In this document: one piece after another, positions 103 through 23,859 of the stretch | How the letters are laid out: every line of letters begins with the position of its first letter | How positions within the stretch are numbered: position 1 is the stretch's first letter | From: Deltaproteobacteria bacterium | GTDB taxonomy: Bacteria > Desulfobacterota > Desulfobulbia > Desulfobulbales > Desulfurivibrionaceae | Length of the DNA stretch: 36,994 nucleotides | Reading direction: 5' to 3' | NCBI GenBank assembly: GCA_026388735.1 | Contig: JAPLJG010000081.1 | Location: 1 to 36,994, forward strand | Position numbers and translations under genes: made by a program | The notes under the pieces: generated by a model | What the model saw: only the letters and a program-made list of their open reading frames with translations | The model's database searches: none | Told to the model about the DNA's origin: nothing

Positions 103-471
103 TCACTGCCCCCCGGCCTCGTTGATCCTGGCGATCAATTCGCCGATGTCCACCGGCTTCATCAAATAATCGAATAGGCCGCGCTGCATACCGATGATGC
201 CGCTTTCCGTGGAGCCGTGTCCGGTGAGGATGATTACCTGGATCTTGGGGTCGTGCTGCTTGATCAGGTCCAGGGCGGCGAGGCCGTCTATCCCCGGCAT
301 CATCAGGTCAAGGAGGACCACGTCCGGTCGCCAGTCACCAGCGAGCACCGCCATCGCTTCCTGGGCCCCGCCCACGGCCTTGGCGGCAAAGCCCCGCAGC
401 TCCAAGCGCTCCGCCAGGGTGGTGCCAAAATCAAGTTCGTCGTCAACAATCAAAATTCTATGCGCGGTCAT
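103..471 (-). CDS. stand-alone response regulator receiver (122 aa)
   Basis: Single-domain CheY-like receiver with no output domain. The acidic pair D10-D11 (IVDDE), phospho-acceptor D55 (VVLLDLMMPGIDG), the conserved Thr in ILTGHGS and the Lys in YLMKPVD are all present, so it should accept phosphate. It is the last gene of a leftward operon, and its start overlaps the 3' end of the upstream kinase gene by 14 bases, indicating translational coupling and a cognate pair. With no DNA-binding domain it must act through protein contacts or as a relay. The sequence does not show the final output. Confidence 0.93.
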   Translation of the reverse strand: MTAHRILIVDDELDFGTTLAERLELRGFAAKAVGGAQEAMAVLAGDWRPDVVLLDLMMPGIDGLAALDLIKQHDPKIQVIILTGHGSTESGIIGMQRGLFDYLMKPVDIGELIARINEAGGQ

Positions 472-2149
472 TGCTCTCGCCCTCGCTGCCTTCGCTATAC
501 ACCGGAAAGGTGATGATAAAAGTGGTGCCCACCCCGACCTCGCTGCTCACTTCGATCTTGCCGCCCATCTTCTGCACAAGGCCATAGGTAATGGACAGGC
601 CTAGCCCGGTGCCCTGTTTCTCCTCGTTGCCCTTGGTGGTGAAAAACGGCTCGAAGATATTCTTCAGGACATCCGGGGCAATCCCCGGCCCGGTGTCGGA
701 GATGGCCACCATGACCGTTTTGTTATTTTCGCGGCGGGAGGTGATGTGGATCTCGCCATCGCTACGGATCGCGTCGATGGCGTTGTTGATCACGTTCAAA
801 AACACCTGCTGCAATTGGCCATGGTCCGCGCGGATGACCGGCAGGTTTTCCTGGAGTTGCAGGATAACATGGATGTTGCGGTAGGCTGCGTCTTTTTCCA
901 GAAAACTCAAGACCTCCTGGAGGATCTCGTTGAGCTGCACCAGGGTCAGGGAGGTTTCCATCCGCCGGGCAAAGCCCAGGAGCCGGTGGGTGATGGTCCG
1001 CGCCCGAACCACGGCATTTTGCAGGGAACCCAGCTGATCGAGAAACTTCTCCCGATGGCGGAAATCCTTGTCCAGCCCGACCAAATCCTGCATCAGCCCG
1101 GCCTTTTCCCCGATGATCGCCAGCGGGTTGTTGATCTCATGGGCAACGCCTGCAGCCAGCCGGCCGATGGAGGCAAGCTTGTTGGAGTGTTCGGTTTCGC
1201 TCAAGATCGCGTCCCGCGTTTCATCGGCCTCCCGAAATTTACCCGCCAGAAAGCGGGAGAGCCAAACAACCATCCCGCCCGAGGCAAGAAAACAGAGGCT
1301 GAGGGTCAGCAGCAGCCGAGCCTTGAAGGAATGCCAGATCTTCCGCGCCTCTGCCCCCTGCTGGTCCAGAACCAAGAGCCAGGGCGTGTTCTGAATCCGG
1401 CTCACGGCCCGGTAAAAAGTGCTGTCCCCGCGCATCTCCTCAATGGCCCCGCCATGGTAGCGGGAGGCGCTTTGCAACTTGCCGCTGTCGTTGATGAGAA
1501 AAATGTCCTCCAGGGCCTCGGTGTCGGCCAGAGCGAGAAACCTATCCAGGGTCTCGGTGTCGATGCTTGCTCTGAGCACCCAGTACTGCTCCGAATAGGG
1601 GTCCTTCTTGCTGGCGGCCACCACGAAATGGGGCACATTGCGGAATCCGGTGAACACCTCGCTCACATACATCCGCCGGGTCAGGGCCTTGTGGAACCAG
1701 AGGCTGTCGCTGTAATCCTTGCCCACCAGGTCGCCGTAGGGGCCGACATAGGCGCTCTGGATGCCGTCCGGCCCGACCACGCTCAGATCAACCAGGCCCT
1801 GATGCTCCTTCTTGAGCTGCCGGAATATCTGCTCCAGCTTCTTGCTGTCGGAGAGATCCTCGAAGGCGTAGGAATCAATAACCACGGTGATCGCCGCCTC
1901 CAGTTTTTCCAGATAGGCGCTGATGGTCGCCCTGGCGCTTTCCGCGTTCCAGCGGGCGTTGGCCTGGGAATCCTCGCGCAGGAGCTGCTGGTACTGGATA
2001 AAATTCAGGCCCGAGGTGATGGAGAGGGGGATCAGGGTAATGGCCAGCATCACGATGAGCAGGCTATTGCGCATGCAGCGGTAGCGGGCCTTGGGAGAAA
2101 GATCCCGGCTGGACGGGCCGCAGAACAGGGGAAACTTGGGTTTGCTCAT
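458..2149 (-). CDS. membrane-bound sensor histidine kinase (563 aa)
   Basis: Layout: a short cytoplasmic N-terminus, TM1 at about residues 28-50, a periplasmic dCache-like sensor (about 51-270), TM2 (about 280-303), a HisKA dimerisation domain with phospho-acceptor H337 ([13 protein letters not shown]), and a HATPase_c domain with an N box near 455, G1 DTGPGI (485-490) and G2 GTGLGL (513-518). The sensor motif SEVFTGFRNVPHFVVA is nearly repeated in the kinase at 6087-7766, so the two are paralogues. The start overlaps the stop of the NifX-like gene by four bases (ATGA), and the 3' end overlaps the downstream receiver. It has no attached receiver, so its partner is probably that receiver. The ligand is unknown; dCache domains commonly bind small organic molecules. 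Confidence 0.93.
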   Translation of the reverse strand: MSKPKFPLFCGPSSRDLSPKARYRCMRNSLLIVMLAITLIPLSITSGLNFIQYQQLLREDSQANARWNAESARATISAYLEKLEAAITVVIDSYAFEDLSDSKKLEQIFRQLKKEHQGLVDLSVVGPDGIQSAYVGPYGDLVGKDYSDSLWFHKALTRRMYVSEVFTGFRNVPHFVVAASKKDPYSEQYWVLRASIDTETLDRFLALADTEALEDIFLINDSGKLQSASRYHGGAIEEMRGDSTFYRAVSRIQNTPWLLVLDQQGAEARKIWHSFKARLLLTLSLCFLASGGMVVWLSRFLAGKFREADETRDAILSETEHSNKLASIGRLAAGVAHEINNPLAIIGEKAGLMQDLVGLDKDFRHREKFLDQLGSLQNAVVRARTITHRLLGFARRMETSLTLVQLNEILQEVLSFLEKDAAYRNIHVILQLQENLPVIRADHGQLQQVFLNVINNAIDAIRSDGEIHITSRRENNKTVMVAISDTGPGIAPDVLKNIFEPFFTTKGNEEKQGTGLGLSITYGLVQKMGGKIEVSSEVGVGTTFIITFPVYSEGSEGESNDRA

Positions 2150-2499
2150 GACGCTGCGCTCCTCTCGGTTTCCGGCCGGATAATAGCGCCCGGTCGCAGT
2201 TGTTTGGCCATGGCCAAGTCGATGGCCTGGGCTGCCGGGCCGATCACCCGGTCGATCACCTCGATTTTTTTCCAGACCAGATATTGAAAATGCGCCTCTT
2301 CAATGCCGCCGCAGATCACCAGGGAGGCCTCTTCGCGGATGATCAGACTGCACAGCTCATCGCTCCCCGGCCCCGGCAGCAGGACGGTGCGCGGCTCCCC
2401 CGAGATCTTGCCCCGGACGATTTTGGCGATGAGCACCTCGGTGGCCAGGTCGAAACGCGGGGCAATATCGTTATTCTGTAGGGTTACCAGGATCTTCAT
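2146..2499 (-). CDS. NifX/NifB-C-terminal-like (dinitrogenase Fe-Mo cofactor family) protein (117 aa)
   Basis: A small alpha/beta protein opening MKILVTLQNNDIAPRFDLA, which is the signature of the family typified by NifX, NafY and the NifB C-terminus. It continues through VICGGIEEAHFQYL and ends near residue 117, a normal length for single-domain members. NifX-type proteins bind metal-sulfur cofactor precursors; many free-standing members have no known role. It lies between a sigma-54 activator (6-base gap) and a histidine kinase (4-base overlap), with no nitrogenase gene in the window. A sensory or scaffolding role in this regulon is therefore more likely than nitrogenase maturation, but this is inference. 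Confidence 0.8.
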   Translation of the reverse strand: MKILVTLQNNDIAPRFDLATEVLIAKIVRGKISGEPRTVLLPGPGSDELCSLIIREEASLVICGGIEEAHFQYLVWKKIEVIDRVIGPAAQAIDLAMAKQLRPGAIIRPETERSAAS

Positions 2500-2505
2500 G
2501 CCGTC

Positions 2506-3906
2506 TTACCCAAGCTCATACTCCTTCATCTTCCGCCAGAGGGTGGTGCGGCCCCAGCCAAGCGCCTTTGCCGCCCCGGTCCGGCTGCCGCCGGTCTGCA
2601 TGAGCGCGGTGAGAATCTGCTTCTTTTCAATGGCGCTCCAGCTCGAAGCGTTGTCCGGGATCTCCGGCACCACCCCTCCCGCCGTCTTTTCAGCGGATTC
2701 CCGCGACGCCGCCGCACCCTTCCCCCGAGGCGCCTTGCCTGCATCGGCCAACACATAGGGGGGCAGATGCTCGACCTCAATGACCTCGCCCCTACAGATA
2801 TTGACCCCGTATTCGATGATATTCCGCAGTTCGCGGACGTTGCCTGGGTAGCGATAACTGTTCAGCAGGCGCAGGGCCTGGGCGGAAAGCCTTTTCACGC
2901 CTTTGCCGAAGCTGGTGGCAAACATCTGGAGAAAATGATCGATGAGCAGCCGCACATCGCCATCCCGCTCGCGAAGCGCCGGGAGATGCACCCGCAGGAC
3001 ATTGAGGCGGAAAAACAGATCTTCGCGGAATTTGCCCTCCTCAACCAGCTGTTTCAGGTCGCGGTGGGTGCCGGTGATCAGCCGCACATCGACCCGGACC
3101 TTCTTCTGGCTGCCCAGGGGGAAAAATTCGCGGTCGTCGAGAACGGTGAGCAGCTTTACCTGGAGCGGCAGGGGCAGATCGCCTATTTCGGTGAGAAAGA
3201 TGGTGCCGCCCTGGGCCAACTGGAACATGCCGTGCTTGTCGGCGTGCGCCCCGGTGAAGGCGCCGCGCATATGGCCGAAAAGCTCGGATTCGAGCAGGCT
3301 TTCGGGAAGCGCCCCGCAGTTGACCTTGATGAACGGATACTTGCTGCGCTTGGAGGCCTGGTGCACAGCCTCGGCCAGGAGATCCTTGCCGGTGCCGGTT
3401 TCCCCGGTGATCAAAACCGAGGAATCGGTGTGGGCGAGAACCGGCAGGAGCTCAAAGATCTCCTGCATCTTCGGACTATGCCCGAGAAGGCCCTTGGCCG
3501 GGCCCGCCTCCTTCTTGCGGTCGATCTCCTGAAAGACGGTGATGTCTTCCAGAACCAGAACCAACGCCTGCCGTCCCTGCCCGGATTCCACCACCGGGGT
3601 GGCCGTGAAACGCATGGGGATCTTTTTACGGTTCAGGCCGAGAATATCGCCCTCGGCGCTGCACGAAACCCCGGCCTCCAAGGCCTGACGGAAGACCTGA
3701 TCGCTTCTGCCGAAACTGCTGTGCAGCACATGGTCGCAAGATATGCCGCGGGCCTCCTCGCCGGAATACCCGGTAAGCGCCTCGAGGAAACGGTTCATCA
3801 TGATGATCCGCAGATCCTGGTCCACAAGGGCGATACCGTGCGGCACCCCATTGAGGATATCAATAAGATCGGGGCGGAAGGTGTTGGTTTCTTCGGTTTC
3901 TGTCAT
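2506..3906 (-). CDS. sigma-54-dependent transcriptional activator, PAS-AAA+-Fis HTH (466 aa)
   Basis: The order is an N-terminal PAS domain (about 12-130), an AAA+ sigma-54 interaction domain with Walker A GETGTGKD (168-175), the sigma-54 contact loop GAFTGA (215-220), and a C-terminal Fis-type HTH (about 425-466, GAAKALGWGRTTLWRKMK). There is no receiver, so control is presumably by ligand or redox sensing through PAS, or by partner proteins. In the Walker B region the usual FLDEIGD is FLTEIGD: the Asp is Thr (residue 229) while the following Glu is kept. It is the first gene of the leftward operon and is divergent from a near-consensus sigma-54 promoter at 4373-4388, its most obvious target. 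Confidence 0.95.
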   Translation of the reverse strand: MTETEETNTFRPDLIDILNGVPHGIALVDQDLRIIMMNRFLEALTGYSGEEARGISCDHVLHSSFGRSDQVFRQALEAGVSCSAEGDILGLNRKKIPMRFTATPVVESGQGRQALVLVLEDITVFQEIDRKKEAGPAKGLLGHSPKMQEIFELLPVLAHTDSSVLITGETGTGKDLLAEAVHQASKRSKYPFIKVNCGALPESLLESELFGHMRGAFTGAHADKHGMFQLAQGGTIFLTEIGDLPLPLQVKLLTVLDDREFFPLGSQKKVRVDVRLITGTHRDLKQLVEEGKFREDLFFRLNVLRVHLPALRERDGDVRLLIDHFLQMFATSFGKGVKRLSAQALRLLNSYRYPGNVRELRNIIEYGVNICRGEVIEVEHLPPYVLADAGKAPRGKGAAASRESAEKTAGGVVPEIPDNASSWSAIEKKQILTALMQTGGSRTGAAKALGWGRTTLWRKMKEYELG

Positions 3907-4372: not shown

Positions 4373-4388
4373 TGGCACGATCCTTGTA
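4373..4388 (+). promoter_or_regulatory. sigma-54 (-24/-12) promoter
   Basis: TGGCACGATCCTTGTA matches the RpoN consensus TGGCACG-N4-TTGCA at all positions except one (T for C in the -12 box). Transcription should start about 12 bases downstream, giving a leader of roughly 60 bases to the ATG at 4458. A divergent sigma-54 activator gene lies immediately upstream. Confidence 0.85.
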
Positions 4389-4457: not shown

Positions 4458-4757
4458 ATGAACACATCACTCAACGCCTTTCAGAAATGGATGACTGCCA
4501 TCACCTTTGCCGAGGCAGGCGAATGGGAAACTGCCAAAAACATGATGCCCGTCGGCATTCGGAGCAGGGCGATCAATCAATTCCAGAAAATCTTCATGGC
4601 AGCCGCCTTTGCCGAAGAGGGGCTCCATGCCGAGGCCATCCGTCTGGCCGAGTGCCCAGACCTTCAGGCCCCGAACGCCGATGAGTTCCTCCAGTCCCTT
4701 GGCTTGAGCGGCATCCGCATGACCTACGGCGTGTTCGCCACTGAGTCCGCCCGCTAA
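4458..4757 (+). CDS. small protein with two TPR-like FAEAGE motifs (99 aa)
   Basis: The start ATG at 4458 is chosen because GCGGAGG lies just upstream and the sigma-54 promoter is about 70 bases away; an upstream in-frame ATG at 4389 would sit on the expected transcription start. The protein is almost entirely helical in character. It holds two helix-turn-helix repeats of TPR-like pattern: FAEAGEWETAKNMM (about 18-31) and FAEEGLHAEAIRLAE (about 50-64). The same motif ends the next two proteins of the operon. It has no signal peptide, TM segment or catalytic motif. It is probably a soluble adaptor that contacts the tagged receivers. No named family was recognised. Confidence 0.8.
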   Translation: MNTSLNAFQKWMTAITFAEAGEWETAKNMMPVGIRSRAINQFQKIFMAAAFAEEGLHAEAIRLAECPDLQAPNADEFLQSLGLSGIRMTYGVFATESAR

Positions 4758-4782
4758 CGCCTTGAGTCCTGGCCAGGCAGCC

Positions 4783-5280
4783 ATGCAGGCAACCGCGCTC
4801 ATTGTTTCAAACGACGCAGGCTTTGCAAAAACAATGCAAACCCTACTGCAAGGCTGGGGGATGACGGTCGCCCTGTCCGAAGAATCGGCCCCGCAGCCTG
4901 GAACAGAGATTGTGTTGCTCGACATCCGGCAGACCGGCAACGAGGGTCCGCACCCGCTCCTGGCCATCCGGGAGAAAATGCCCGCAGCCGAGATCATCCT
5001 CATCAATCGACCGGACAATATCCCGCTGTCCATCGCCGGGATGCAGGCCGGGGCGGCTGATGAACTCATCGCCCCGTTTGACACCAGCACCTTAAAAAAC
5101 TCCATCTCCGCAGCCCTTGCGCGGTGGAAAAAACGGCAGGGGAAAAAAACGCTGTTCCAGCGCTTCGGAGATGCCATGGCTGCCGCGACCTTTGCCCAGG
5201 CGGGCGAGTTCGACACCGCCATCGCCATGCTGGACAGCGAAGAAGAAGCTCCCCGACCCTCCAACCGGGAAAAACCATAG
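4783..5280 (+). CDS. degenerate receiver-like protein with C-terminal FAQAGE motif (165 aa)
   Basis: The fold pattern is that of a response-regulator receiver: ALIVSNDAGF, then EIVLLDIR, then EIILIN, then ELIAPFD. D47, the phospho-acceptor position, is kept. The acidic Asp pair is Ser-Asn, the switch Thr is Asn, and the conserved Lys is Ala, so normal phosphorylation chemistry is unlikely. The C-terminus carries FAQAGEFDTAIAMLD, the TPR-like motif shared with both neighbours. ATG 4783 is preferred over an upstream in-frame TTG (4762) because the conserved strand starts immediately after it. It is probably a pseudo-receiver that binds partners constitutively. Confidence 0.75.
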   Translation: MQATALIVSNDAGFAKTMQTLLQGWGMTVALSEESAPQPGTEIVLLDIRQTGNEGPHPLLAIREKMPAAEIILINRPDNIPLSIAGMQAGAADELIAPFDTSTLKNSISAALARWKKRQGKKTLFQRFGDAMAAATFAQAGEFDTAIAMLDSEEEAPRPSNREKP

Positions 5281-5322
5281 GACAGCCGCCGACGCTGTCC
5301 CCCAACCGCGCATGAGGACATT

Positions 5323-5775
5323 ATGGACGACATCAAAATTCTGCTGGTAGATGACGAAGAAGATTTCATCAGAACCCTATCGGAACGCCTTGATCTGCGG
5401 GATATGGGCAGCAAGACCGCGCTCAACGGCGAACAGGCCTTGGGCTATGTGGGCGAGAAAGAGCCCGATGTCATGGTCCTCGACCTCAAGATGCCGGGCA
5501 TCGACGGCATGGAGGTGCTGCGGCGGGTGCGCCAGATCTACCCAAACATCCAGGTCATTATCCAGACCGGGCATGGCAACGATCTGGACGAGGCAGAGGC
5601 AAGACGGCTCGGGGTGTTTGATTATCTGAAAAAGCCCGTTGATATCGAGATCCTGGTGGAGCGGATCAAGGCGGCCCACCAGGCAAAAAAGAATCTGCTG
5701 GACAGCTCCGCCGCTGCTGCGGCCTTTGCCGAAGCGGGGGAATACGAAACCGCCAGGGATATGTTGAAACAATAG
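5323..5775 (+). CDS. response regulator receiver with C-terminal FAEAGE motif (150 aa)
   Basis: An intact receiver: D10-D11 (LLVDDEEDF), phospho-acceptor D54 (VMVLDLKMPGIDG), Thr in IQTGHGN and Lys in YLKKPVD. After the receiver, a short linker leads to FAEAGEYETARDMLK at the extreme C-terminus, the motif of the two preceding proteins. GAGGA lies 9 bases before the ATG. The gene ends in TAG, and the following HTH gene at 5788 is in the same reading frame only four codons later. A REC-HTH protein has therefore either been split, or is made in small amounts by readthrough. It is a likely partner of the kinase at 6087-7766. Confidence 0.9.
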   Translation: MDDIKILLVDDEEDFIRTLSERLDLRDMGSKTALNGEQALGYVGEKEPDVMVLDLKMPGIDGMEVLRRVRQIYPNIQVIIQTGHGNDLDEAEARRLGVFDYLKKPVDIEILVERIKAAHQAKKNLLDSSAAAAAFAEAGEYETARDMLKQ

Positions 5776-5787
5776 GGCCAGACAGAA

Positions 5788-6090
5788 ATGCACAAACAGA
5801 CCGCAGCCATAAACCGCCATTTCATCGTCAGCGGCGAAGGCATCGAAATCCGCCCCCTGCCTGGCACCGGTATACCCGAAGGATATCCGCCGGAAGGCAG
5901 CTTCCCCACCCTCCTGGAGGTGGAACAGGAATATGTGCAACGGGTGCTGGCCCACGTGGCGGGCAACAAATCCCGGGCAGCCCAGGTCCTGGGCATAGAC
6001 CGGGTTTCCCTGTGGCGGAAGCTGAAACGACTGGAAAGTCTCGCCCCCTCCGGTGCTCCCCCGCTTAAGGAATATTCCGCCCAGCCATGA
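5788..6090 (+). CDS. orphan Fis-type helix-turn-helix protein (100 aa)
   Basis: The C-terminal half matches the Fis-type DNA-binding domain seen at the ends of NtrC-like and RegA/PrrA-like regulators: a helix EVEQEYVQRVLAHV, then GNKSRAAQVLGIDRVSLWRKLKR (about 68-90). The first 45 residues match no recognised domain. It is in frame with the upstream receiver gene, separated by one TAG codon and 12 bases. Its stop overlaps the next kinase start (ATGA). It could be the detached output domain of the preceding receiver, binding DNA as a dimer, or a small nucleoid-type regulator. No strong ribosome-binding site precedes ATG 5788. Confidence 0.82.
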   Translation: MHKQTAAINRHFIVSGEGIEIRPLPGTGIPEGYPPEGSFPTLLEVEQEYVQRVLAHVAGNKSRAAQVLGIDRVSLWRKLKRLESLAPSGAPPLKEYSAQP

Positions 6091-7766
6091 AAATGTACAC
6101 CGCCACCATCCCCGGCAGCGCCCTCAAGGTCCGCTCGCGTGAATCGTATTATGCGCGACAGAAGCGGCTTTTTGTCCTGCTGGTCATTCTGGTGGCCATC
6201 ATCCCCCTGCTCTTCATCAGCTGGACCGCCTCGCATTTTTATCAGAAATCATGGCTGGACAAGACCACCGTTGAGCTGACCAGCCTGGCTAACAGTCGCC
6301 GGGAAATCATCGACCTTTTCCTCGACAGCCAGGAAAATATCCTGGCCGGCTACGCGGAGCTTTATGACCTTGCCTGGTTGAGCACCCCCGGCAATCTGGA
6401 AAAACTTTTTAAAGCCATGAACCACCAGGGCGTCATCGTTGATCTGGGCCTCATTGCCAAGGATGGCAGCCACCGCAGCTACACCGGCCCATTTGCCGCA
6501 GACCTGAAGGACAAAAATTACGCCGCGACCCGCTGGTTTGCGGAGGTCATGCAGAACGGCAGATACATCAGCGATGTGTTCACCGGCTACCGGGCCGTGC
6601 CCCATTTCATCGTGGCGGTGACCGATCCCACCCGCTCCTGGGTTCTGCGGGCCACGATCAATTCCGAGCTGTTCAATGCCCTGCTGGCCAGTGCCGAGGT
6701 AGGACCGGGCGGGGACGCCTTTATCCTCAACCGGCAGGACGAGTTGCAGACACCAAGCCGCCAGGGACTCACCGCGCTTCCGGCCGGAGAAAAAGGGCTG
6801 CTCGCCACGGGCGGCGGCCTGACCATCCACCATTCCCAGGGGGCACTGTACGCCACCACCGGCATGAAGAACAACGCCTGGACCCTGGTGCTGAAAACCG
6901 ACATCGCCACCTCGCTCGCCGATTTTTACCGGGCCAGGCAACGCGACCACCTGATCATCGCCTGCGCGGCCCTGCTCATTCTCGCCGTTTCCACCTTCCT
7001 GGTACGCTCCATGATGAACAAGGTGGAGGGCGCGGACCAGCAGCGGATGCTGCTCTACGACCGCATCCGCTATTCGGAAAAAATGGCCCTGATCGGCAGA
7101 ATGGCAGCCAATGTAGCCCATGAAATCAACAACCCCTTGCAGATCATCGGCGACCAGGCCGGCTGGCTGGACGAGCTGCTCAGCGAGGAAGACCCTGCGA
7201 ACCTGAAAAACACCGAGGAATACCGGATCGCCTTTGCCAAGATCAAAGCCCAGGTCAAACGGGCCAGCACCATCACCCACCGGCTCCTGGGCTTTTCCCG
7301 CAGCACCGACGGCTTGAAATCAGCGACCAAGATCAACACCTTGGTGGAAGAAACCGTCTCTTTTCTGGAAAAGGAGGCGGCCAATCACCGCATCGCCATC
7401 CGCCGCAACCTGGGATCAGGTCTGCCGGAGATCACCACCGACACCACCCAGTTGCAGCAGGTGTTTCTCAACATCTTGAACAACGCCTTCGACGCCATCG
7501 GCAACGACGGTGCGGTCACCATCAGCACCCGCCTGGATGGCAAGCAGCTGGCGGTGGAGTTTGCCGACAGCGGGCCGGGGTTGCCGGAAGAGGTTCTGAA
7601 AAAAGTCTTCGAGCCGTTCTTCACCACCAAAAAGGCAGGGAGTGGCACCGGCATCGGTCTGGCCATTTCCTACAGCATCGTCGAACGGCTCGGCGGCAGC
7701 ATCGAGGTGCGCAACGGCATGCAGGGCGGCTGCGTTTTCCGGGTCAATCTCCCGGTTGCCGCCTGA
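6087..7766 (+). CDS. membrane-bound sensor histidine kinase, paralogue of the leftward kinase (559 aa)
   Basis: TM1 at about 28-49, a periplasmic dCache-like sensor about 50-285, TM2 about 288-306, HisKA with H345 ([13 protein letters not shown]), and HATPase_c with DSGPGL and GTGIGL glycine motifs and EPFFTTKK. The sensor carries [17 protein letters not shown], closely matching the leftward kinase, so the pair arose by duplication and should sense related ligands. Translation is coupled to the upstream HTH gene by a 4-base overlap. A 25-base gap leads to a receiver gene, giving a kinase-receiver unit like the leftward one. Confidence 0.93.
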
Positions 7767-7791: not shown

Positions 7792-8163
7792 ATGAGCGAA
7801 TTTTCCATCCTGGTCGTTGATGATGAAGAGGAATTTGTCACCACCCTGGTGCAACGGTTGCGCAAGCGGGGTTGGGCCGGCGAGGGGGTGTTGAGCGGCG
7901 GCGCGGCCATCGCCAGGATCGCGGCCAGAGATTTTTCTGTGGTCCTGCTGGACATGCGCCTCCCGGACATGGACGGCGGCCAGGTTCTCCAGGAGATAAA
8001 AAAGATTCGTCCCGCAAGCCGAGTGGTCATCCTCACCGGCCACGCCTCGGCCAGCGAAGGTGAAGAAGGCATCCGAAACGGGGCCTTCGACTATCTGCTC
8101 AAACCGGTGGAATTTGAAACCCTGCTGGAAAAACTCCAGGCGGCCAAGGATTGCAGCCAATAG
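7792..8163 (+). CDS. stand-alone response regulator receiver (123 aa)
   Basis: A single receiver domain with D10-D11 (LVVDDEEEF), phospho-acceptor D54 (VVLLDMRLPDMDG), Thr in ILTGHAS and Lys in YLLKPVE; no output domain. ATG 7792 is chosen because AAAAGGAGAG sits just upstream and the receiver starts at once; longer in-frame extensions would overlap the kinase gene. It is probably phosphorylated by the kinase immediately upstream. The downstream gap of 81 bases holds a T-run (about 8204-8212) but no convincing hairpin, so transcription may continue into the permease gene. Confidence 0.92.
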   Translation: MSEFSILVVDDEEEFVTTLVQRLRKRGWAGEGVLSGGAAIARIAARDFSVVLLDMRLPDMDGGQVLQEIKKIRPASRVVILTGHASASEGEEGIRNGAFDYLLKPVEFETLLEKLQAAKDCSQ

Positions 8164-8244: not shown

Positions 8245-9558
8245 ATGAATTTCTTCAAGCAGTTCAACCAGTTCTTGCTCATGGGCGCCCGCGCCCAGGC
8301 GAAGTGGGAGCTCGACATCTCAAACACCATCCTACAGGACAAGAAGCGGATAGGCATACTCTGCCTGTTGCTCATCCCCATCCTCCTCGGCGGCATCGCC
8401 TTTGCAGAGGATGTATCAGGTGTCATGCCCGCCATGCTGGGAGGCAAGACGGCCTACACTCCGGCCTTCTACACCCCCACCATCTTCTTTGCCTCCATCG
8501 CCGTCGGCGTGGTGGCAGGCTTGATCACCGGCTGCATCGGCGCAGGCGGCGGCTTCATCATTGCCCCTGCCCTGATGAGCGCCGGGGTCAAGGGTATCCT
8601 CGCCGTGGGCACCGACCTGTTCCACATCTTCGCCAAGGCGATCATGGGCAGCGTCCTGCACCGTAAACTGGGCAACGTCTCCGTGCCCCTGGCGGCTGTC
8701 TTCCTGATCGGCTCCGTGGGCGGCGCCACCCTGGGCGGCTGGATCAACCGCACCATTTATGAGACCAACCCGGTTTTAAGCGACGCCTTCATCACCACCA
8801 TCTACGTAGTCATGCTGGGCTTCCTCTGCTCCTACGCCCTGTACGACTGGTACCGCTCCACCAGGCCGGTAAAACAGACGGCTTCCGGCCCCTCCATCCA
8901 GACCGCCGGCACCCTGACCGGCCTGGCCCAGAAGCTCCAGGCTGTCAATCTCCCCCCCATGATCACCTTCGATGAGGGTGTCACTCCGGGCGGACGCAAG
9001 ATCTCCTGGATTTTTCTGGTCTTAAGCGGCGCGCTGGTGGGCTTGGCCGCGGCCATCATGGGCGTGGGCGGCGGCTTTTTGACCTTCCCGATCTTCGTCT
9101 ATGTGCTGGGTGTTTCCTCTGCCACCACCGTGGGCACCGACATCTTCCAGATCATCTTCACCGCAGGTTACGCGGGCCTCGGCCAATACGCCATCTACGG
9201 CTTCATCTTCTACACCCTGGCCATGGGCATGCTTCTGGGTTCCCTGGTGGGCATCCAGGTCGGTTCCCTGGTAACCAAAGTGGTGACCGGCCAGACCATC
9301 TGCGGCCTCTACGCCATCGCCACCTCGGCTGGCTTTATCAACCGGGCCTTTGCCCTGCCGCCCAAGCTGGCCAAGATGGGCTACATTGAAATGAGCAAGG
9401 ATACCGGGAAGATGCTGGACCTGGTGGGCAATCTCATCTTTTTCGTGGTGCTGGGCGCATTCGCCATCTGGGTCTTCTATATCTTCTTCTCCAATATCCG
9501 CACCCTCAAGGGTGAGGAGCCAAAAGCAGCCCTGCGGGCCAAGGAGGTGGCAGCATGA
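8245..9558 (+). CDS. TauE/SafE family anion permease (437 aa)
   Basis: A polytopic inner-membrane protein of the TauE/SafE (DUF81) family, proposed exporters of sulfite or organosulfonates. The two internal repeats are clear: GCIGAGGGFIIAPAL followed by AVGTDLFHIF, and GVGGGFLTFPIFVYVLGV followed by TVGTDIFQII. At 437 residues it is longer than the usual 250-300, owing to an N-terminal extension with a hydrophobic segment (about 34-52) and a cytosolic loop in the middle. A strong AAGGAAGGAGGAG precedes the ATG. It overlaps the next gene by four bases. Its place behind two-component genes suggests regulated export. The substrate cannot be read from sequence. Confidence 0.9.
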   Translation: MNFFKQFNQFLLMGARAQAKWELDISNTILQDKKRIGILCLLLIPILLGGIAFAEDVSGVMPAMLGGKTAYTPAFYTPTIFFASIAVGVVAGLITGCIGAGGGFIIAPALMSAGVKGILAVGTDLFHIFAKAIMGSVLHRKLGNVSVPLAAVFLIGSVGGATLGGWINRTIYETNPVLSDAFITTIYVVMLGFLCSYALYDWYRSTRPVKQTASGPSIQTAGTLTGLAQKLQAVNLPPMITFDEGVTPGGRKISWIFLVLSGALVGLAAAIMGVGGGFLTFPIFVYVLGVSSATTVGTDIFQIIFTAGYAGLGQYAIYGFIFYTLAMGMLLGSLVGIQVGSLVTKVVTGQTICGLYAIATSAGFINRAFALPPKLAKMGYIEMSKDTGKMLDLVGNLIFFVVLGAFAIWVFYIFFSNIRTLKGEEPKAALRAKEVAA

Positions 9559-10268: not shown

Positions 10269-10306
10269 CACAGGATGTTCTCGGCACACTCCGGGAACAT
10301 CCTGTG
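10269..10306 (+). terminator. stem-loop after the permease operon, possible terminator
   Basis: A perfect 12-bp stem CACAGGATGTTC (10269-10280) and GAACATCCTGTG (10295-10306) with a 14-base loop. A T-rich run (CTTTTTTTCT) follows only about 15 bases later, so it is not a classic intrinsic terminator; it may be a processing or partial-termination site before the next gene. Confidence 0.5.
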
Positions 10307-10370
10307 TTCCCCTAGCCCCCCTTTTTTTCTCCGTTGCCTTCCCTTCCCCTCTTCCGTTATGCTGGATGCC

Positions 10371-13004
10371 ATGAGCCATTTCCTTGACCGCCTGACCTCG
10401 TTTTTTCATGGCAAACCCAGGCTGACCCCTGCCGAATTGCAGGCCGCCTTTCGCGGCCATTACAAGGAATTCCGCGCCCTGCTCACCGCCAACAACAACG
10501 CCCTGGAGCTGATGGCCGAGATGGAACAGGCCCTCGGTCCGGGCCATCCCTTTGGCATGACCTTTGTCCGGGGCAACTGCACCGCCCTTTCCGTCAATAT
10601 CTACAAGATGATTCAGCACCTGACCAGATTGGCCGATGGCCGGTATGCCGAGCTGGACCAGCCATTTCGGGCCATCACCAAACAACTCGAACAGGTCATC
10701 GCCAGCCGCTCCGTCAGCACCGAGGGGGCGACCATCCTTTCCATGGCGGAGGTGGACGCCGGCTCCGTGGATCAGGTGGGGGAAAAAATGGCCAATCTGG
10801 GCGAGGTCAGAAACCGGGTCGGCCTCAGAACCCCGGATGGCTTTGTCATTACTGCCTCTGCGGCCCGAAAATTCATCGAGGCCAATGCCTTGCAGGTGGA
10901 GATCAATCGCCGCCTCAAAGGGTTGGATCTCGACAACCTGGAAGCGCTCTACACCGTCAGCGCCGGAATCCAGAGTCTGATCAGCAATGCCCCCCTGCCT
11001 GCGGAACTGGAAGAGGCGATTCTGGCCCACCACCACCAGCTCGACACCGACCCGCAGACCGAATTGCTGGTTGCCCTGCGCTCAAGCGCCCTGGGCGAAG
11101 ACAGCTCCAATGTCTCCTTTGCCGGCCAGTACCGGACCCAACTCAATGTCAGCCGCGAATTTGTCGGCCAGGCCTACAAGGAGATCGTGGCCGGCAAGTA
11201 CAAAAGCCAGGCCATTGTCTACCGCCAGCAGCGGGGCTACCGGAACCAGGACGTGCAGATGTGCGTCGGTTGCCTGCGCATGGTGGATGGGGCCATAAGC
11301 GGGGTGATGTATTCCCGGGCCCCGGATGATCCGCGCAGCCCATTTGTCATTATCCAGGCAGCACCCGGCCTTGCCAGCACGGTGGTGGACGGCAGCGGGG
11401 CCACCGAGCTGTTCCGAGTCAGCCGGACTGCGCCCCACCCGATCCTGCACCGGCAGGCTGCCCAGGAAATCGCGGACTCCCGCTTGAGCCTCACCGATAC
11501 CCAGGCTGCCGAACTGGCGGCAATCGGGGTGCGCCTGGAAGACCATTTCGGCACCCCCCAGGATATCGAATGGTCCATCGACCGCTCCGGCCTGCTCTAC
11601 ATTCTGCAATCCCGCCCCCTTGGCCATTCTGCTTCTGGAGAGGGGCAAGATAACTCTATAAGCGGTCACAGGGTGCCGCAGATCCGCGAAAGAGGCCTGC
11701 CCGCTATACACCAAGTATGCGGACAGGCCGATGACAAAGGAGATGCGGTGCCATGTGACCGCTTACCGCTTTTGGCCGGTGGGGTGTGCGCTAGCCAGGG
11801 GGTGGGCTGCGGCCCTGTGTTCACGGTGCGCTCCAGCCTCGATCTGCTGCGCTTTCCCAAGGGCGCGGTGCTGGTCATCGAAACGCCGTATCCGGACTGG
11901 GCCAGCCTGCTCAACAGGGCCGTGGCTGTGGTCAGCGAAACCGGCCAAATGGCCGCCCACCTTGCCACCGTGGCCCGCGAATTCGGGATACCTGCGATTT
12001 TCGGTCTGAACCAGGCCCTGGCAACCCTGGAAAATGGCAGCCTGATCACCGTGGATGCCACCGCAGGCAAGGTCTATGCCGGTAAAATCGAGTCCCTGCT
12101 GGCCCTGGCCGCGCCCAGGCCCAATCTCATGACCGGGAGCCCGGTGTACAAAATCCTCACCCAGGCCCTGGTCCACATCACCCCGCTCAACCTGACCGAC
12201 CCCACCTCTCCGTTTTTTAGGGCCGACGGTTGCCGGACCATGCACGATCTCACCCGCTTCTGCCACGAAAAGGCGGTGGTGGAGATGTTCACCTTTGGCG
12301 AGCGGTACGGCTTTGACGACAAGGCAGCCAAGCAGCTGGTGGTGGAAAATTCGCCGGCCCAGTGGTGGGTGATCGATCTCGACGACGGCTTTACCCCTGA
12401 TTTCAACCCGGAAAGCCGCTATGTCCATCTCGGCCACATCACCTCCGTACCCATGCAGGCCATCTGGCAGGGAATGATGGCCTTTCCCTGGGCCGGGCCG
12501 CCGCCGGTCAGCCTGGGAGGGCTCGGCTCCATCATCTTCCAGTCCACGAGAAACCCAAGCCTCGACCCGGCGGTGCGCTCGGCCATGACCGCCAAGAATT
12601 ACTTTCTCATCTCCAGAAACTTCTGCAACCTCAGCGTCCGGCTCGGCTACCATTTTGCCCTGGTGGAAGCCAACCTGGGGGAATTTCTCACGGAAAACTA
12701 TGTGAGCTTCCAGTTCAAAGGCGGGGCTGCGGACGAAAACCGCCGTCTGCTGCGCATCCGGCTGATCCGCGAGATCTTAAGCGCATTCGGCTTCCGGGTG
12801 GAGCAGAAGGTGGACGCCATGACCGCCCGAATCGAAAAAAAACCCGGCCCCTATCTGCTGGAACGCTTGAGGATTCTCGGCTACCTGCTGATCCACACCC
12901 GCCAAATCGACATGGTCATGGCCGACGAAGGCATGGCCGCAACCTACCGCGAGAAAATCATGGCCGATCTGCACACCCTGCTGGATACACCAACGGAGGG
13001 ATGA
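10371..13004 (+). CDS. PEP synthase-like protein: PEP/pyruvate-binding ATP-grasp plus phosphohistidine swivel domain, novel C-terminus (877 aa)
   Basis: After an N-terminal helical region (about 1-120) comes a PPDK_N/PEP-synthase ATP-binding domain: NLGEVRNRVGLRTPDGFVIT, then ALRSSALGEDSSNVSFAGQY, closing with DIEWSIDRSG and LQSRP. A swivel domain follows with the phospho-accepting His at about 530 (ETGQMAAHLATVAREFGIPA). The PEP-utilising TIM barrel of true PpsA/PPDK is missing; the last 280 or so residues match no recognised family. Residues about 430-465 are encoded by a palindromic repeat (11659-11765) in the linker between the two domains. ATG 10371 and an in-frame ATG 10359 are both possible, neither with a strong ribosome site. 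A receiver gene starts 2 bases after the stop. It may phosphorylate its own His and pass the phosphate to an unknown acceptor. Confidence 0.85.
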   Translation: MSHFLDRLTSFFHGKPRLTPAELQAAFRGHYKEFRALLTANNNALELMAEMEQALGPGHPFGMTFVRGNCTALSVNIYKMIQHLTRLADGRYAELDQPFRAITKQLEQVIASRSVSTEGATILSMAEVDAGSVDQVGEKMANLGEVRNRVGLRTPDGFVITASAARKFIEANALQVEINRRLKGLDLDNLEALYTVSAGIQSLISNAPLPAELEEAILAHHHQLDTDPQTELLVALRSSALGEDSSNVSFAGQYRTQLNVSREFVGQAYKEIVAGKYKSQAIVYRQQRGYRNQDVQMCVGCLRMVDGAISGVMYSRAPDDPRSPFVIIQAAPGLASTVVDGSGATELFRVSRTAPHPILHRQAAQEIADSRLSLTDTQAAELAAIGVRLEDHFGTPQDIEWSIDRSGLLYILQSRPLGHSASGEGQDNSISGHRVPQIRERGLPAIHQVCGQADDKGDAVPCDRLPLLAGGVCASQGVGCGPVFTVRSSLDLLRFPKGAVLVIETPYPDWASLLNRAVAVVSETGQMAAHLATVAREFGIPAIFGLNQALATLENGSLITVDATAGKVYAGKIESLLALAAPRPNLMTGSPVYKILTQALVHITPLNLTDPTSPFFRADGCRTMHDLTRFCHEKAVVEMFTFGERYGFDDKAAKQLVVENSPAQWWVIDLDDGFTPDFNPESRYVHLGHITSVPMQAIWQGMMAFPWAGPPPVSLGGLGSIIFQSTRNPSLDPAVRSAMTAKNYFLISRNFCNLSVRLGYHFALVEANLGEFLTENYVSFQFKGGAADENRRLLRIRLIREILSAFGFRVEQKVDAMTARIEKKPGPYLLERLRILGYLLIHTRQIDMVMADEGMAATYREKIMADLHTLLDTPTEG
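11659..11765. repeat. palindromic TIR element, family B copy 1, inside a coding region
   Basis: Terminal inverted repeats of about 26 bases: TAAGCGGTCACA...TGCCGCAGATC at the left, and GATGCGGTGCC...TGTGACCGCTTA at the right. An inner stem GGCCTG...CAGGCC surrounds a short centre. The segment CAGGCCGATGACA and the GATGCGGTGC block are shared with copy 2 at 13464. The host reading frame stays open through the whole element. Confidence 0.8.
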
Positions 13005-14102: not shown

Positions 14103-15098
14103 CTAGCAAAAGTTAAACAGGTTTATGCCCATGGTGCTCAAGCCCTTTTGCACGGCTTTCAGACCGGCAAAGAGAAGAATGACGATAACCATCCAGCGGA
14201 TAAAGGTCGGCTTGGCAACTTTGAGCAAGCGAACCCCAACAAACGAACCCAGCATGATGCCAATGAGCGAAGGCACAACGATCATGGGGATCAAGCAGCC
14301 TTTGTTCAGGTAAATCCAGGCCGCGGAGGTATCGGTGATGGAGAGCAGGAACTTGGAGGTGGCCACGCTGATCTTAAGCGGCGCGCCCATCATGAGATTT
14401 AACACCGGCACGTTGGCCCAACCGGCGCCCAGACCGAACATGCCCGCCATGAAACCGATGATGATGAAGGTCAGCAGGCCGGGAATGGTGCGATGGATCT
14501 TCCAGTTGATCTCTTCCTTGGAGGTCGGCTCATAAAAAACACCGGTGATCCGCAGGGCGGTGGAAAGCGCATCCGCATGGGGAACAACCGGAACCGTTGA
14601 TTTCTTGGCAGTGAGCATGATGGCCACGATGCCAAGGATGGTGCCGCCCAAGGCAAGCTGAACAACGTGGGTGGGCAGAGCCAGGCCGACCATGGCGCCG
14701 ACAATGGCCATGGTGGAGGCGATAAGCGCCACCGGCAGGGCCAGACGCAGACTGGCGAGGTTGGCCTTCAACAGGCCGGGGCCTGCGGCAAGGGAACCGC
14801 ACAGCGCGACCAGCAGACCGGCGCCGCGAACAAAATCAAGGTGAAACGGGAAAAACCCGCCGATGATGGGCACGAACAGCACCCCGCCGCCAACGCCGCC
14901 AAGCACCGCGATGATGCCCATGAAAAAGGTGACAAACAGCAGAATCACCGGCCATTTCCACCAGCCCGGATCACCGGCAGCCGGAACCTGGGCCATCTCA
15001 ACCGCTTCGCTTGCCAGAGCCCAGGCCGGGCTCAACATGATGGCGCACATGCAGGAGACAAACAGCATCCCCGCCTTTTCCTTGATGTTTCCTTGCAT
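14103..15098 (-). CDS. TauE/SafE family anion permease, second copy (331 aa)
   Basis: It begins with a signal-peptide-like segment (MLFVSCMCAIMLSPAWALAS), then a short periplasmic part and about eight TM segments. The family repeats are GGVGGGVLFVPIIGGFFPF and, in the second half, MFGLGAGWANVPVLNLMMG followed by the helix ISVATSKFLLSITD. AAGGAGG is well placed before the ATG. It is only distantly similar to the permease at 8245-9558, which lacks this signal peptide, so it is a separate subfamily rather than a recent duplicate. The substrate is probably a sulfur oxyanion, as in the family generally; this is inference. Confidence 0.9.
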   Translation of the reverse strand: MQGNIKEKAGMLFVSCMCAIMLSPAWALASEAVEMAQVPAAGDPGWWKWPVILLFVTFFMGIIAVLGGVGGGVLFVPIIGGFFPFHLDFVRGAGLLVALCGSLAAGPGLLKANLASLRLALPVALIASTMAIVGAMVGLALPTHVVQLALGGTILGIVAIMLTAKKSTVPVVPHADALSTALRITGVFYEPTSKEEINWKIHRTIPGLLTFIIIGFMAGMFGLGAGWANVPVLNLMMGAPLKISVATSKFLLSITDTSAAWIYLNKGCLIPMIVVPSLIGIMLGSFVGVRLLKVAKPTFIRWMVIVILLFAGLKAVQKGLSTMGINLFNFC

Positions 15099-21414: not shown

Positions 21415-22094
21415 TTCCTCGCCCGATCCAGCGCCTGCTGCTGGCCACGCTCTATGATGCCTTTGCCGAGTGGGCCACCACGTTCGCCTTTGCCTGCCGC
21501 AAGGGATGCGCCACCTGCTGCACCCGAAGTGTCACCATGACCAGCCTGGAAGGCGATGAAATCTTGGCCTTTCTGGCCGAGGCCGATCGCCTCTCAGAAT
21601 TGGCTGCGCCCGCATTTCAACCTACGGCAACCCGGATGAAACAGTGCACCACCAACGCCTTTGTCGCCGCCCATCTCAGGGGTGAGGCCGTGGAAGAGGC
21701 AGAAAGCTGGGATCTGCGGCCCTGCCCGTTTCTCAAGGACGAGAGCTGTTCCATCTACCCGGCGCGGCCCTTTGGCTGCCGACTCTTTGCCTCCCTGGAC
21801 CCCTGCGCGGCAAGCGGCGCGGCAGACATGCCGCCGGGCTATCTCGCCGGGGCAACCGCCCTGCTGCAATATATCGAACACCTAGATACCGGCGGACGCT
21901 GGGGCACCATGGTGGAACTGCTGGCTGGACTGAACACGGGGCATGATGGCTACGGGGAACCCACCGCACCCATCCCCGGCTTCCTCATCGCCCCGAACGA
22001 ACTCGCCCTTGTCGAGCCGCTCCTCCATGGCTTGCTCGCCAGAGAAATCAAGGGCCAGACCTTTGCCCAGTGGCTTCAGGCATCACGCTCATAG
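21411..22094 (+). CDS. YkgJ-type cysteine-cluster protein (227 aa)
   Basis: ATG 21411 is used because it overlaps the birA stop (ATGA) and precedes the family core. Two Cys groups define the YkgJ/UPF0153 family: CRKGCATCC near residue 24, and RPCPFLKDESCSIYPARP then FGCR near 104-124. The family probably binds zinc or an Fe-S cluster; its role is unknown in general. It is third in a wrbA-birA-ykgJ-like operon. A family A repeat begins 31 bases after the stop. Confidence 0.88.
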   Translation: MIPRPIQRLLLATLYDAFAEWATTFAFACRKGCATCCTRSVTMTSLEGDEILAFLAEADRLSELAAPAFQPTATRMKQCTTNAFVAAHLRGEAVEEAESWDLRPCPFLKDESCSIYPARPFGCRLFASLDPCAASGAADMPPGYLAGATALLQYIEHLDTGGRWGTMVELLAGLNTGHDGYGEPTAPIPGFLIAPNELALVEPLLHGLLAREIKGQTFAQWLQASRS

Positions 22095-22125
22095 CCACCC
22101 CCCCAGAACACACCCTGGGAAAAAT

Positions 22126-22310
22126 TCCCATTGGCACGCAGCCGAGCACCGGAGAGGCTGCCGAAAAGGGGATTTGCACTGTTTGAGGCGAAGCCGAGTT
22201 TGCAAAGCCCCGGCAGCATCGAGGAGCACAGGGCACCCCGCCTTCGGCGGGACAAGGGACAGGGGTGCCTTTTTCTTGTTTCTTCTTTTGGGCAAGCAAA
22301 AGAAGAAAGA
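22126..22310. repeat. structured dispersed repeat, family A copy 1
   Basis: It starts TCCCATTGGCACGCAGCCGA, as do copies 2 and 3. The main stem is GCTGCCG (22157-22163) with CGGCAGC (22211-22217), plus an inner GGGGATTTGCA with TGCAAAGCCC (one mismatch). CCCGCCttcGGCGGG follows, and a perfect 12-bp hairpin TTTCTTCTTTTG (22279-22290) / CAAAAGAAGAAA (22297-22308) ends it. It lies between convergent genes. Confidence 0.88.
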
Positions 22311-22334
22311 GCAAACCGTGAAAAGCCCTTCCCA

Positions 22335-22370
22335 AAAACAAAAAAAGGGGCGCCGGAAACCCGGCACCCC
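22335..22370 (-). terminator. Rho-independent terminator for ahcY
   Basis: On the minus strand a stem GGGGTGCCGG / CCGGCGCCCC (with one mismatch) and a GTTT loop (22347-22370) is followed by TTTTTTGTTTTTGGG. It is placed about 25 bases past the ahcY stop. Confidence 0.85.
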
Positions 22371-22395
22371 TGTCACACACACTGTTTCCTAAAAA

Positions 22396-23859
22396 TCAAT
22401 ACCGGTAATGGTCTGCCTTGTAAGGCCCGCCCACCGGCACATCGATATACGCAGCCTGTGCCTTGGAAAGCTCGGAAAGATGCACGCCAAGCTTCTTGAG
22501 ATGGAGGCGCGCCACCTTCTCGTCCAGCACCTTGGGCAACACATAGACTTTTTTCTGATACTTCTTGGAATTGGCGAACAGCTCGATCTGGGCCAGCACC
22601 TGATTGGTGAAGGAGGCAGACATCACGAAGCTGGGATGGCCGGTGGCGCAACCCAGGTTCACCAGGCGGCCTTCGGCCAACAGGGTGATCTTCTTGCCGT
22701 CGGGGAAAACGATGTGATCGACTTGGGGCTTGATGTTCTCCCAGGTGTACTTGCGCACCGAGGCCACATCAATCTCCGAATCGAAATGGCCGATGTTGCA
22801 GACAATGGCCTCGTCCTTCATGGCCTTCATGTGGGCATGGTTGATGACCTTCTCGTTACCGGTGCAGGTGACGAAGATATCGCCATGCGCCGCAGCCTCT
22901 TCCATGGTCATCACCCGGTAGCCTTCCATGGCCGCCTGGAGCGCACAGATCGGATCGATTTCCGTAACCCATACCTGGGCACCTAAGCCTCGAAAGGCCT
23001 GGGCGCAACCCTTGCCCACGTCGCCGTAGCCGAGGATCACCGCGAGCTTACCTGCCACCATCACGTCGGTGGCGCGCTTGATGCCATCCATCAGCGATTC
23101 GCGGCAGCCGTAGAGATTGTCGAACTTGGACTTGGTAACAGAGTCATTGACGTTCATGGCCGGGAAAAGCAAGCCGCCGGCCTTTTCCATCTGGTAGAGA
23201 CGATGCACCCCGGTGGTGGTCTCTTCGGTCACACCGCGGATGGCCTTGGCAGCGGCGGTCCATTTCTTGTTATCTGCGGCAAAATCCTGCTTGAGCACAC
23301 CCAGTACGGCCTGCCATTCCTCGTTGTCGCTCTTCTTGGCGATGGGCACCTTGCCGGCCTTCTCGAACTCTGCACCCTTATGCACCAGCAGGGTGGCGTC
23401 GCCACCGTCGTCGAGGATCATGTTGGGCGGGTTGCCGTCCGGCCAGGTCATGGCCTTTTCCGTACACCACCAGTATTCCTCGATGGTTTCGCCCTTCCAG
23501 GCATAGACCGGCACGCCGGTCGCGGCAATGGCAGCGGCGGCATGGTCCTGGGTGGAGAAGATGTTGCAGGAGGCCCAACGCACCTGGGCGCCCAAGGCAA
23601 CCAGGGTCTCGATCAGCACTGCGGTCTGGATGGTCATGTGCAAGGAGCCGGAGATCCGTGCGCCCTTGAGGGGCTTCTTCTTGCCGAACTCCTCACGCAG
23701 GGCCATAAGCCCTGGCATCTCGGTTTCCGCGATTCGGATTTCCTTGCGGCCCCAATCGGCCAGAGCCATATCCGCAACCTTGAAATCGGTCTGTTTCTTT
23801 GCCGGAGCTTTTTTGACCGGGGCCTTCTTTACTGGTGCTTTTTTTGCTGGTGCCTTCAT
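22396..23859 (-). CDS. ahcY: adenosylhomocysteinase with basic repeat N-terminal extension (487 aa)
   Basis: Hydrolyses S-adenosylhomocysteine to adenosine and homocysteine, relieving product inhibition of methyltransferases. Family signatures: [30 protein letters not shown], the NAD-binding [17 protein letters not shown] and the C-terminal KADHYRY. The first 22 or so residues are a low-complexity Lys/Ala/Pro repeat ([18 protein letters not shown]) outside the usual catalytic fold. GGAGG lies before the ATG. It follows metK by 45 bases on the same strand, so the two form a SAM synthesis-recycling operon ending at the terminator near 22350. Confidence 0.96.

Follow-up and report, generated by a model that had tools for sequence, protein, structure and literature searches.

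Why do neighbouring proteins of different folds carry the same short motif? The question is raised by a small operon in a contig from a deltaproteobacterium of the Desulfurivibrionaceae (GenBank assembly GCA_026388735.1, contig JAPLJG010000081.1, positions 1 to 36,994 of the forward strand; this whole stretch of 36,994 nucleotides is called the window below). Here, we show that a TPR-like helix-turn-helix of ~30 residues, hereafter the tag, is common to neighbouring proteins of different folds. We put at about 0.55 the probability that this compact TPR-like hairpin is used as a docking tag.

Four copies of the tag in one operon

The features of the window are collected in Table 1. An earlier note on this DNA had described a FAEAGE motif in four copies on three proteins. 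The four copies are real; however, the second copy of P0001 is degenerate, with EG in place of AGE and the TA absent, and the copy in P0002 reads FAQAGE. The same note's notion of a half-TPR-like tag common to adjacent proteins of different folds is borne out.

Table 1. Features of the window in and around the tag operon
Feature	Position	Strand	Evidence
Sensor histidine kinase of divergent arm	458..2149	-	HisKA and HATPase_c above cut-off
PAS, sigma-54 activator, divergent from tag operon	2506..3906	-	Pfam Sigma54_activat, 230.5 bits
Sigma-54 type -24/-12 promoter-like site, TGGCACGATCCTTGTA	4373..4388	+	Pattern scan; ahead of tag operon
P0001, 99 aa: two tag hairpins and conserved C-terminal motif, DEFLQSLGLSGIRMTYG	4458..4757	+	ORF, profile A2, alignment
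Tag copy 1, P0001, FAEAGEWETAKNMM	4470..4550	+	Profile A2, E 9.3e-14
Tag copy 2, P0001, degenerate, FAEEGLHAEAIRLAE	4575..4628	+	Profile A2, E 5.1e-4
P0002, pseudo-receiver with C-terminal tag	4783..5280	+	Response_reg below cut-off; alignment with P0003
Tag copy 3, near P0002 C-terminus, FAQAGEFDTAIAML	5152..5235	+	Profile A2, E 6.2e-10
P0003, intact receiver with C-terminal tag	5323..5775	+	Pfam Response_reg, 94.1 bits
Tag copy 4, end of P0003, FAEAGEYETARDMLKQ	5698..5772	+	Profile A2, E 2.9e-10
Fis-type HTH protein	5788..6090	+	Pfam HTH_8, 51.3 bits
Sensor histidine kinase with dCache-like part	6087..7766	+	HisKA and HATPase_c above cut-off
Receiver protein without tag	7792..8163	+	ORF; receiver HMM
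TauE/SafE (TSUP) transporter	8245..9558	+	PF01925, 114.7 bits at 8497-9324; cut-off 32.6, exceeded
PPDK_N and PEP-utiliser enzyme, untagged	10275..13004	+	Pfam

P0003 is a receiver by Pfam score (cut-off 30.2 bits) and by its DD/D/T/K residues, and D10, D11, D54, T82 and K104 are invariant in the 27 rows of alignment A5. P0002, whose frame spans 4762-5280 with the ATG at 4783 as the likelier start, scores 27.3 bits against the same cut-off and thus falls short of receiver membership; in the alignment with P0003 its DD is SN and the Thr and Lys are replaced, with the acceptor Asp retained. In the AF2 model of P0003 (pLDDT 87, pTM 0.80), receiver alpha5 and the first tag helix form one continuous helix (108-137), followed by the second tag helix (141-149). 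Since the tag helix continues alpha5 in this model, phosphorylation could change the geometry of the tag. The model of P0001 is of moderate confidence (pLDDT 66, pTM 0.47) and consists of two hairpins and a short helix, with helices at 3-19, 23-29, 41-53, 57-64 and 74-80. Foldseek gave no match to it at E<=0.001; among the best 50 matches listed, many are TPR proteins, all at E>2.

P0001-type proteins (window 4458-4757 and the relatives in alignment A4) also share a conserved C-terminal motif, DxFLxxxGLxGIRxTYG, the F[LM]xx[VIL]GL core of which is found in 20 of the 32 tag-only ORFs with several tags; L099 and L101 are of the P0001 type and lack it. Another relative of P0001, L127, has three repeats.

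Both kinases in Table 1 match dCache_1 below its cut-off of 45 (40.9 bits for the divergent-arm kinase, 39.7 bits for the other). Between the divergent-arm kinase and the sigma-54 activator sits a small Nitro_FeMo-Co-like protein (2146-2499, minus strand; 24.2 bits, under the cut-off of 26.3). The window holds a second TauE/SafE gene at 14103-15098 on the minus strand, opposite to the tag operon (PF01925, 119.9 bits). Similar frames (RLPKRGFAL...QSPGSIEEHRA...) at window 21943-22499 and L007:11134-11691 look like a repeated intergenic element.

A conserved core and no named family

Profile A2 has 30 positions and was built from 73 divergent tag copies. A15 is invariant, and A11, F14, E16, A17, G18 and A23 are each present in at least 90% of the copies; the AEA core is strictly kept (A15 73/73, E16 70/73, A17 68/73). 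Searched with this profile at E<=1, the 2.97 Mb assembly of the source organism contains seven tag places, confined to two gene clusters: the four in the window and three more on contig C111, in a second cluster (locus L007). An independent DNA pattern matches the same assembly three times, versus none for the reversed control. Given the profile places and this control, the tag lies far above chance.

The TPR consensus has small, F/Y, G, acidic, A and L residues at positions 8, 11, 15, 16, 20 and 24, and the tag, by column counts and AF2 helices, is a helix-turn-helix in which such residues recur with this spacing. There are differences: the tag is ~30 residues long, usually occurs as one copy rather than an array, has a short second helix and keeps its AEA, which to our knowledge is no TPR signature. 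Profile scores are low. P0003 reaches 12.9 bits with TPR_6 against a cut-off of 26.3, P0001 and P0002 have no TPR match in Pfam at E<=1, and hhalign of the tag against consensus TPR gives a probability of 7% (E 0.0049). Nine of the 73 tags touch Pfam TPR_4 (best E 0.003).

The C-terminal domain of FimV/HubP (TIGR03504), which we take to be a single TPR-like motif at the protein end, is matched weakly by 9/73 tags (best E 0.016), short of NCBIfam membership, and as weakly as the unrelated EIIA-LAC (10/73 tags, best E 0.011); FimV/HubP, moreover, is a polar landmark protein. Other library matches to the 73 tags are a few single ones. Such weak matches to TPR_4, FimV_Cterm and EIIA-LAC are to be expected of a tag of 30 residues, and they do not make it a member of any of the three. 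A parallel of another kind is offered by the encapsulation peptides of microcompartments, short helical recruitment motifs on unrelated proteins of one gene cluster. The tag resembles them in being a single short helical element shared by unrelated proteins of a cluster; it differs in that it is a two-helix TPR-like hairpin and is also found in internal loops.

For the tag, no Pfam or NCBIfam cut-off was reached by any of the proteins and tags scanned, in keeping with the earlier view of an undescribed module. Solved structures yielded no match to the tag profile (best E 1.5), and PHROGs none to 17 P0001-type proteins. Nor was a description of the tag found in the literature searched, including for the string FAEAGE, within a coverage that largely leaves out subscription journals. 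There is thus no named protein family that we found for it.

The tag sits at different places on unrelated hosts

Host proteins were surveyed in 182 loci, made up of the window, L007, 120 loci with the exact DNA pattern (of at least 120 that exist) and 60 sampled loci; among the exact-pattern loci, some are parts of a single contig and some duplicate sampled loci. Gene maps combined stop-to-stop frames with HMMs grown from single seeds, and an ORF was counted as tagged at 15 bits or more to the tag profile. This gave 370 tagged ORFs, 360 of them distinct in sequence. A universal stress domain is present in 119, a receiver in 80, a small membrane protein in 17 and a PPDK-like enzyme in four. 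Another 150 are tag-only, with no other recognised domain, a class defined by the absence of matches to the single-seed HMMs rather than to curated models; they carry one copy (118/150), two (30/150) or three (2/150). The link to receivers that the earlier note had drawn therefore holds in part: receivers are tagged, but most hosts are something else (80/370 receivers, as against 119 stress proteins and 150 tag-only ORFs), and the idea of a receiver-only tag was rejected on this count.

Position depends on the host. How often the tag ends a receiver can now be stated, at 78 of the 80 tagged receivers, with one N-terminal and one mixed case. In universal stress proteins the tag is N-terminal (88) or inside the domain (31); all 31 internal tags start 39 to 61 residues into the matched domain, and in the 12 sequences examined the tag follows the apparent second strand. 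All 17 small membrane proteins have it at the N-terminus. In the four PPDK-like proteins, alignment reveals a loop insertion of ~30 residues; eight of nine untagged relatives that cover the insertion place, among which is the window enzyme, lack those residues, and the ninth, L144, aligns differently there. Altogether the tag is internal in 35 ORFs of the 182 loci. Ordinary paralogy was rejected, because the hosts have unrelated folds and differ in where the tag is placed. Descent from a shared ancestor would leave the different folds unexplained, and an output domain of receivers explains neither the tagged stress proteins nor the tagged enzyme. Because the tag is found at the N-terminus, at the C-terminus and inside loops of unrelated folds, a docking module is the reading that we favour, and the common docking surface envisaged earlier would fit this distribution.

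Could the tag instead be a passive leftover of domain shuffling within a gene cluster, with no common role? Untagged relatives exist for all host types and occur in such clusters (membrane, stress, PPDK and receiver proteins), as this explanation would have it. A11, F14, A15, E16, A17, G18 and A23 are, however, strongly conserved across phyla and hosts, and the tag is placed differently on different folds, which makes such an origin very improbable.

Some hosts are also found fused. In L086, a pseudo-receiver-tag protein is joined to a receiver-tag protein in one chain; its use as a stand-in for the complex was dropped, alignment A3 placing the relatives on its second half. Six untagged fusions combine a universal stress domain with the membrane unit (L028, L059, L161, L169, L185, L196); in other genomes the stress protein and the membrane unit, tagged (17) or plain, are separate genes. 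Tagged genes are present in the loci of all six fusions as well, and the tag system is therefore not replaced by fusion. Natural fusions of this kind indicate that the proteins act together, but not that it is the tag that joins them.

Tag genes lie in two-component clusters, often with transporters

The 60 sampled neighbourhoods (L138-L197) were hand-picked from the own-phylum matches listed and represent 42 of the 53 positive genomes; several come from one genome, so these loci are not independent. The absence of any link to receivers, which would have counted against the reading of the earlier note, is not what these loci show: an untagged receiver is found in all 60, a histidine kinase in 57 and a sigma-54 activator in 48; next in frequency are TauE (39), universal stress (35) and receiver-Lon (22) genes. 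Receivers are, however, common elsewhere too, in that they make up most of the 116 matches to a receiver-Lon query in the assembly of the source organism. TauE lies within 2 kb of a tag gene in 23/60 loci and within 5 kb in 30/60, and is absent from the fetched stretch in 21/60. Twenty tag-bearing genomes hold 142 TauE matches, 5 to 9 per genome or 7.1 genes per 3.0 Mb; at this density chance would place TauE in about 2 of 60 loci, versus the 39 observed. Tag genes themselves cluster: 42/60 loci have at least two, and 38/60 have tag genes of different host classes if tag-only is counted as one. Of the 67 pairs of neighbouring tag genes in 62 loci, 66 have both members on the same strand. Sigma-54-like sites, counted if no more than 460 nt upstream of the first tag, precede 21/62 tag operons, versus 87/12400 random windows of the same loci.

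Three layouts recur. Layout I, that of the window, runs from sigma-54 activator, kinase and receiver to tandem tag, pseudo-receiver-tag and receiver-tag genes, then often to a kinase, a receiver and TauE. A short (~230 aa) kinase-like protein is recurrent in layout I (L142:3042-3752, minus strand); a Pfam match is absent in the one scanned. Beside one layout I cluster, at L164:4862-7163 (minus strand), are an LCIB-type carbonic anhydrase and a sodium:sulfate symporter. Layout II, that of C111, has a kinase and a receiver-sigma-54 regulator adjoining genes for a tag protein, a tag-stress protein, a membrane protein, TauE and a stress protein. On C111 itself, three successive genes carry the tag near the N-terminus: a 59-aa protein (L007:7818), a universal stress-like protein and a third protein with two hydrophobic stretches, both in its C-terminal half. 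Downstream lie TauE/SafE and then a tandem universal stress protein; the kinase and sigma-54 regulator are divergent, and in a pattern scan the first tag gene is preceded by a -24/-12 type site (L007 7731-7746). In layout III (Pfam for L141 and L171), a receiver-AAA-Lon gene, in many cases divergent from a small tag gene, is accompanied by genes for a tag-stress protein and a CitMHS/TrkA_C transporter.

A further possibility is that the tag is a recognition handle, or degron, for the receiver-Lon protease encoded beside many clusters. In its favour, each of the 22 sampled loci with a receiver-Lon gene has a stand-alone tag gene, often divergent (Pfam confirmation for L141, 5388-7421, minus strand). 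The other 38 of 60 fetched stretches are without receiver-Lon, so the protease is not seen wherever the tag is. It was likewise not seen in the assembly of the source organism (91.6% complete; 150 of 165 candidates scored), where Lon matches lack the receiver part. A terminal degron also does not explain internal insertions, and in the P0003 model the tag continues a receiver helix. We regard a degron as improbable.

Distribution across genomes

The tag extends well beyond the source organism. A profile search of evenly drawn genomes of its own phylum, along lines proposed earlier and run with the 73-copy profile, found it in 53/395 at E<=0.001. At the same threshold it is present in 62/198 genomes of the phylum of L012 (titled Thermodesulfovibrionia) and in 14/398 of that of L057 (titled Thiotrichaceae), four of these 14 at E above 1e-4. 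The exact DNA pattern occurs in at least 120 stretches of named genomes, metagenome bins in most cases among the matches listed. Titles among these matches are mostly Nitrospirae/Nitrospirota/Thermodesulfovibrionia or deltaproteobacterial (Desulfobulbaceae, Desulfobacteraceae and others); rarer ones are Magnetococcales, Thermoleophilia, Gaiellales, Actinomycetes, Ignavibacteriaceae, Melioribacteraceae, Latescibacterota, Deferribacteres, Chromatiales, Thiotrichaceae and Alphaproteobacteria.

Some genomes hold a single tag at E<=0.001, namely 15/53 positive genomes of the own phylum and 13/62 of the L012 phylum. Eleven near-complete f43 genomes, which we guess to be Desulfovibrio-like, illustrate the point. 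All eleven have the receiver tag. At E<=0.001 eight have one match, and G076, G190 and G372 have two; relaxing the threshold to E<=1 adds a second tag, degenerate and on the membrane protein, in G109, G335 and G165. With G076, G190 and G372, where it is already present at E<=0.001, the degenerate membrane-protein tag is thus found in 6/11. In G277 a second place appears only at E 0.235, on another ORF, and G213, G256, G353 and G391 (4/11) retain a single tag even at E<=1. When fetched loci were scanned more finely, G187, G106 and G334 also proved to have a second copy, at 13.6 to 20 bits; G058, G213, G277 and G391 had none. In the one f43 locus checked for it (L203), TauE follows the membrane protein.

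Discussion

What might the tag dock to? On its own, a TPR hairpin makes a poor domain, and packing against another hairpin is therefore plausible. That the partner of one tag is another tag is nonetheless the least certain point of our reading, a tentative proposal to which we give less than even odds. Single-tag genomes are at odds with docking of tag to tag between different proteins; self-association is possible in these genomes.

The single-tag genomes would sit more easily with one common untagged partner, for example the cytoplasmic part of TauE/SafE or a kinase domain, which tagged proteins would share or compete for. The strictly kept AEA could be the contact face, and the most constant neighbours of the tag (receivers, kinases, sigma-54 activators and TauE, in that order) include such candidates. 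Yet TauE, the most specific of them, is missing from about a third of the fetched stretches (the 21 of 60 given above), and tandem-tag and tag-only proteins would be easier to understand as bridges. On balance, we consider a common untagged partner rather unlikely.

Under the docking reading that we prefer, the tag would mark members of two-component-linked, often sigma-54-controlled clusters rich in anion-type transporters (TauE/SafE, sometimes CitMHS-type), and would gather tagged receivers, universal stress proteins and the small membrane protein in a single assembly. Stand-alone and tandem-tag proteins, such as P0001 with its two repeats or relatives with three, may act as bridges. Going further, hairpins from receivers, stress proteins, membrane protein and enzyme might stack into a mixed TPR-like solenoid, a complex built at anion transporters with tandem-tag proteins as adaptors; this picture is less likely than not.

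Clusters of similar layout have been studied in Desulfovibrio vulgaris. According to passages of PMC3333781, DVU3303-3305 (receiver-Lon, kinase and regulator) control DVU3302-3298, some of which have universal stress domains, and expression of these operons goes up under several stresses. Passages of PMC10102598 report that DVU3303-3305 are cofit at >0.9 and that the anion transporter DVU3299 is important under chlorate. They also describe DVU0539-0545, which respond to molybdate and comprise a kinase/regulator pair, two universal stress proteins, a transporter and a 133-aa membrane protein. With kinase and regulator, universal stress proteins and an anion-type transporter in each, DVU3298-3305 (with its receiver-Lon regulator) resembles layout III and DVU0539-0545 (with its 133-aa membrane protein) layout II, a likeness by layout, not sequence. 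There are differences: these passages of the two papers do not mention the tag, and the DVU0539-0545 transporter is named there as PSE-family, not TauE. In D. magneticus, a passage of PMC4287615 states, tauE is required for magnetosomes. By analogy with the D. vulgaris clusters of like layout, and from the transporters themselves, we infer that the tag may have a role in anion (sulfate-analogue) stress.

It has long been asked how single-domain receivers, and universal stress proteins that lack an output domain, are directed to their targets; the tag could provide an explanation. If the mixed solenoid were true, the tag would amount to a transferable homotypic assembly code of bacterial signalling. 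It also provides an annotation handle for many small hypothetical proteins of sulfate reducers and related bacteria.
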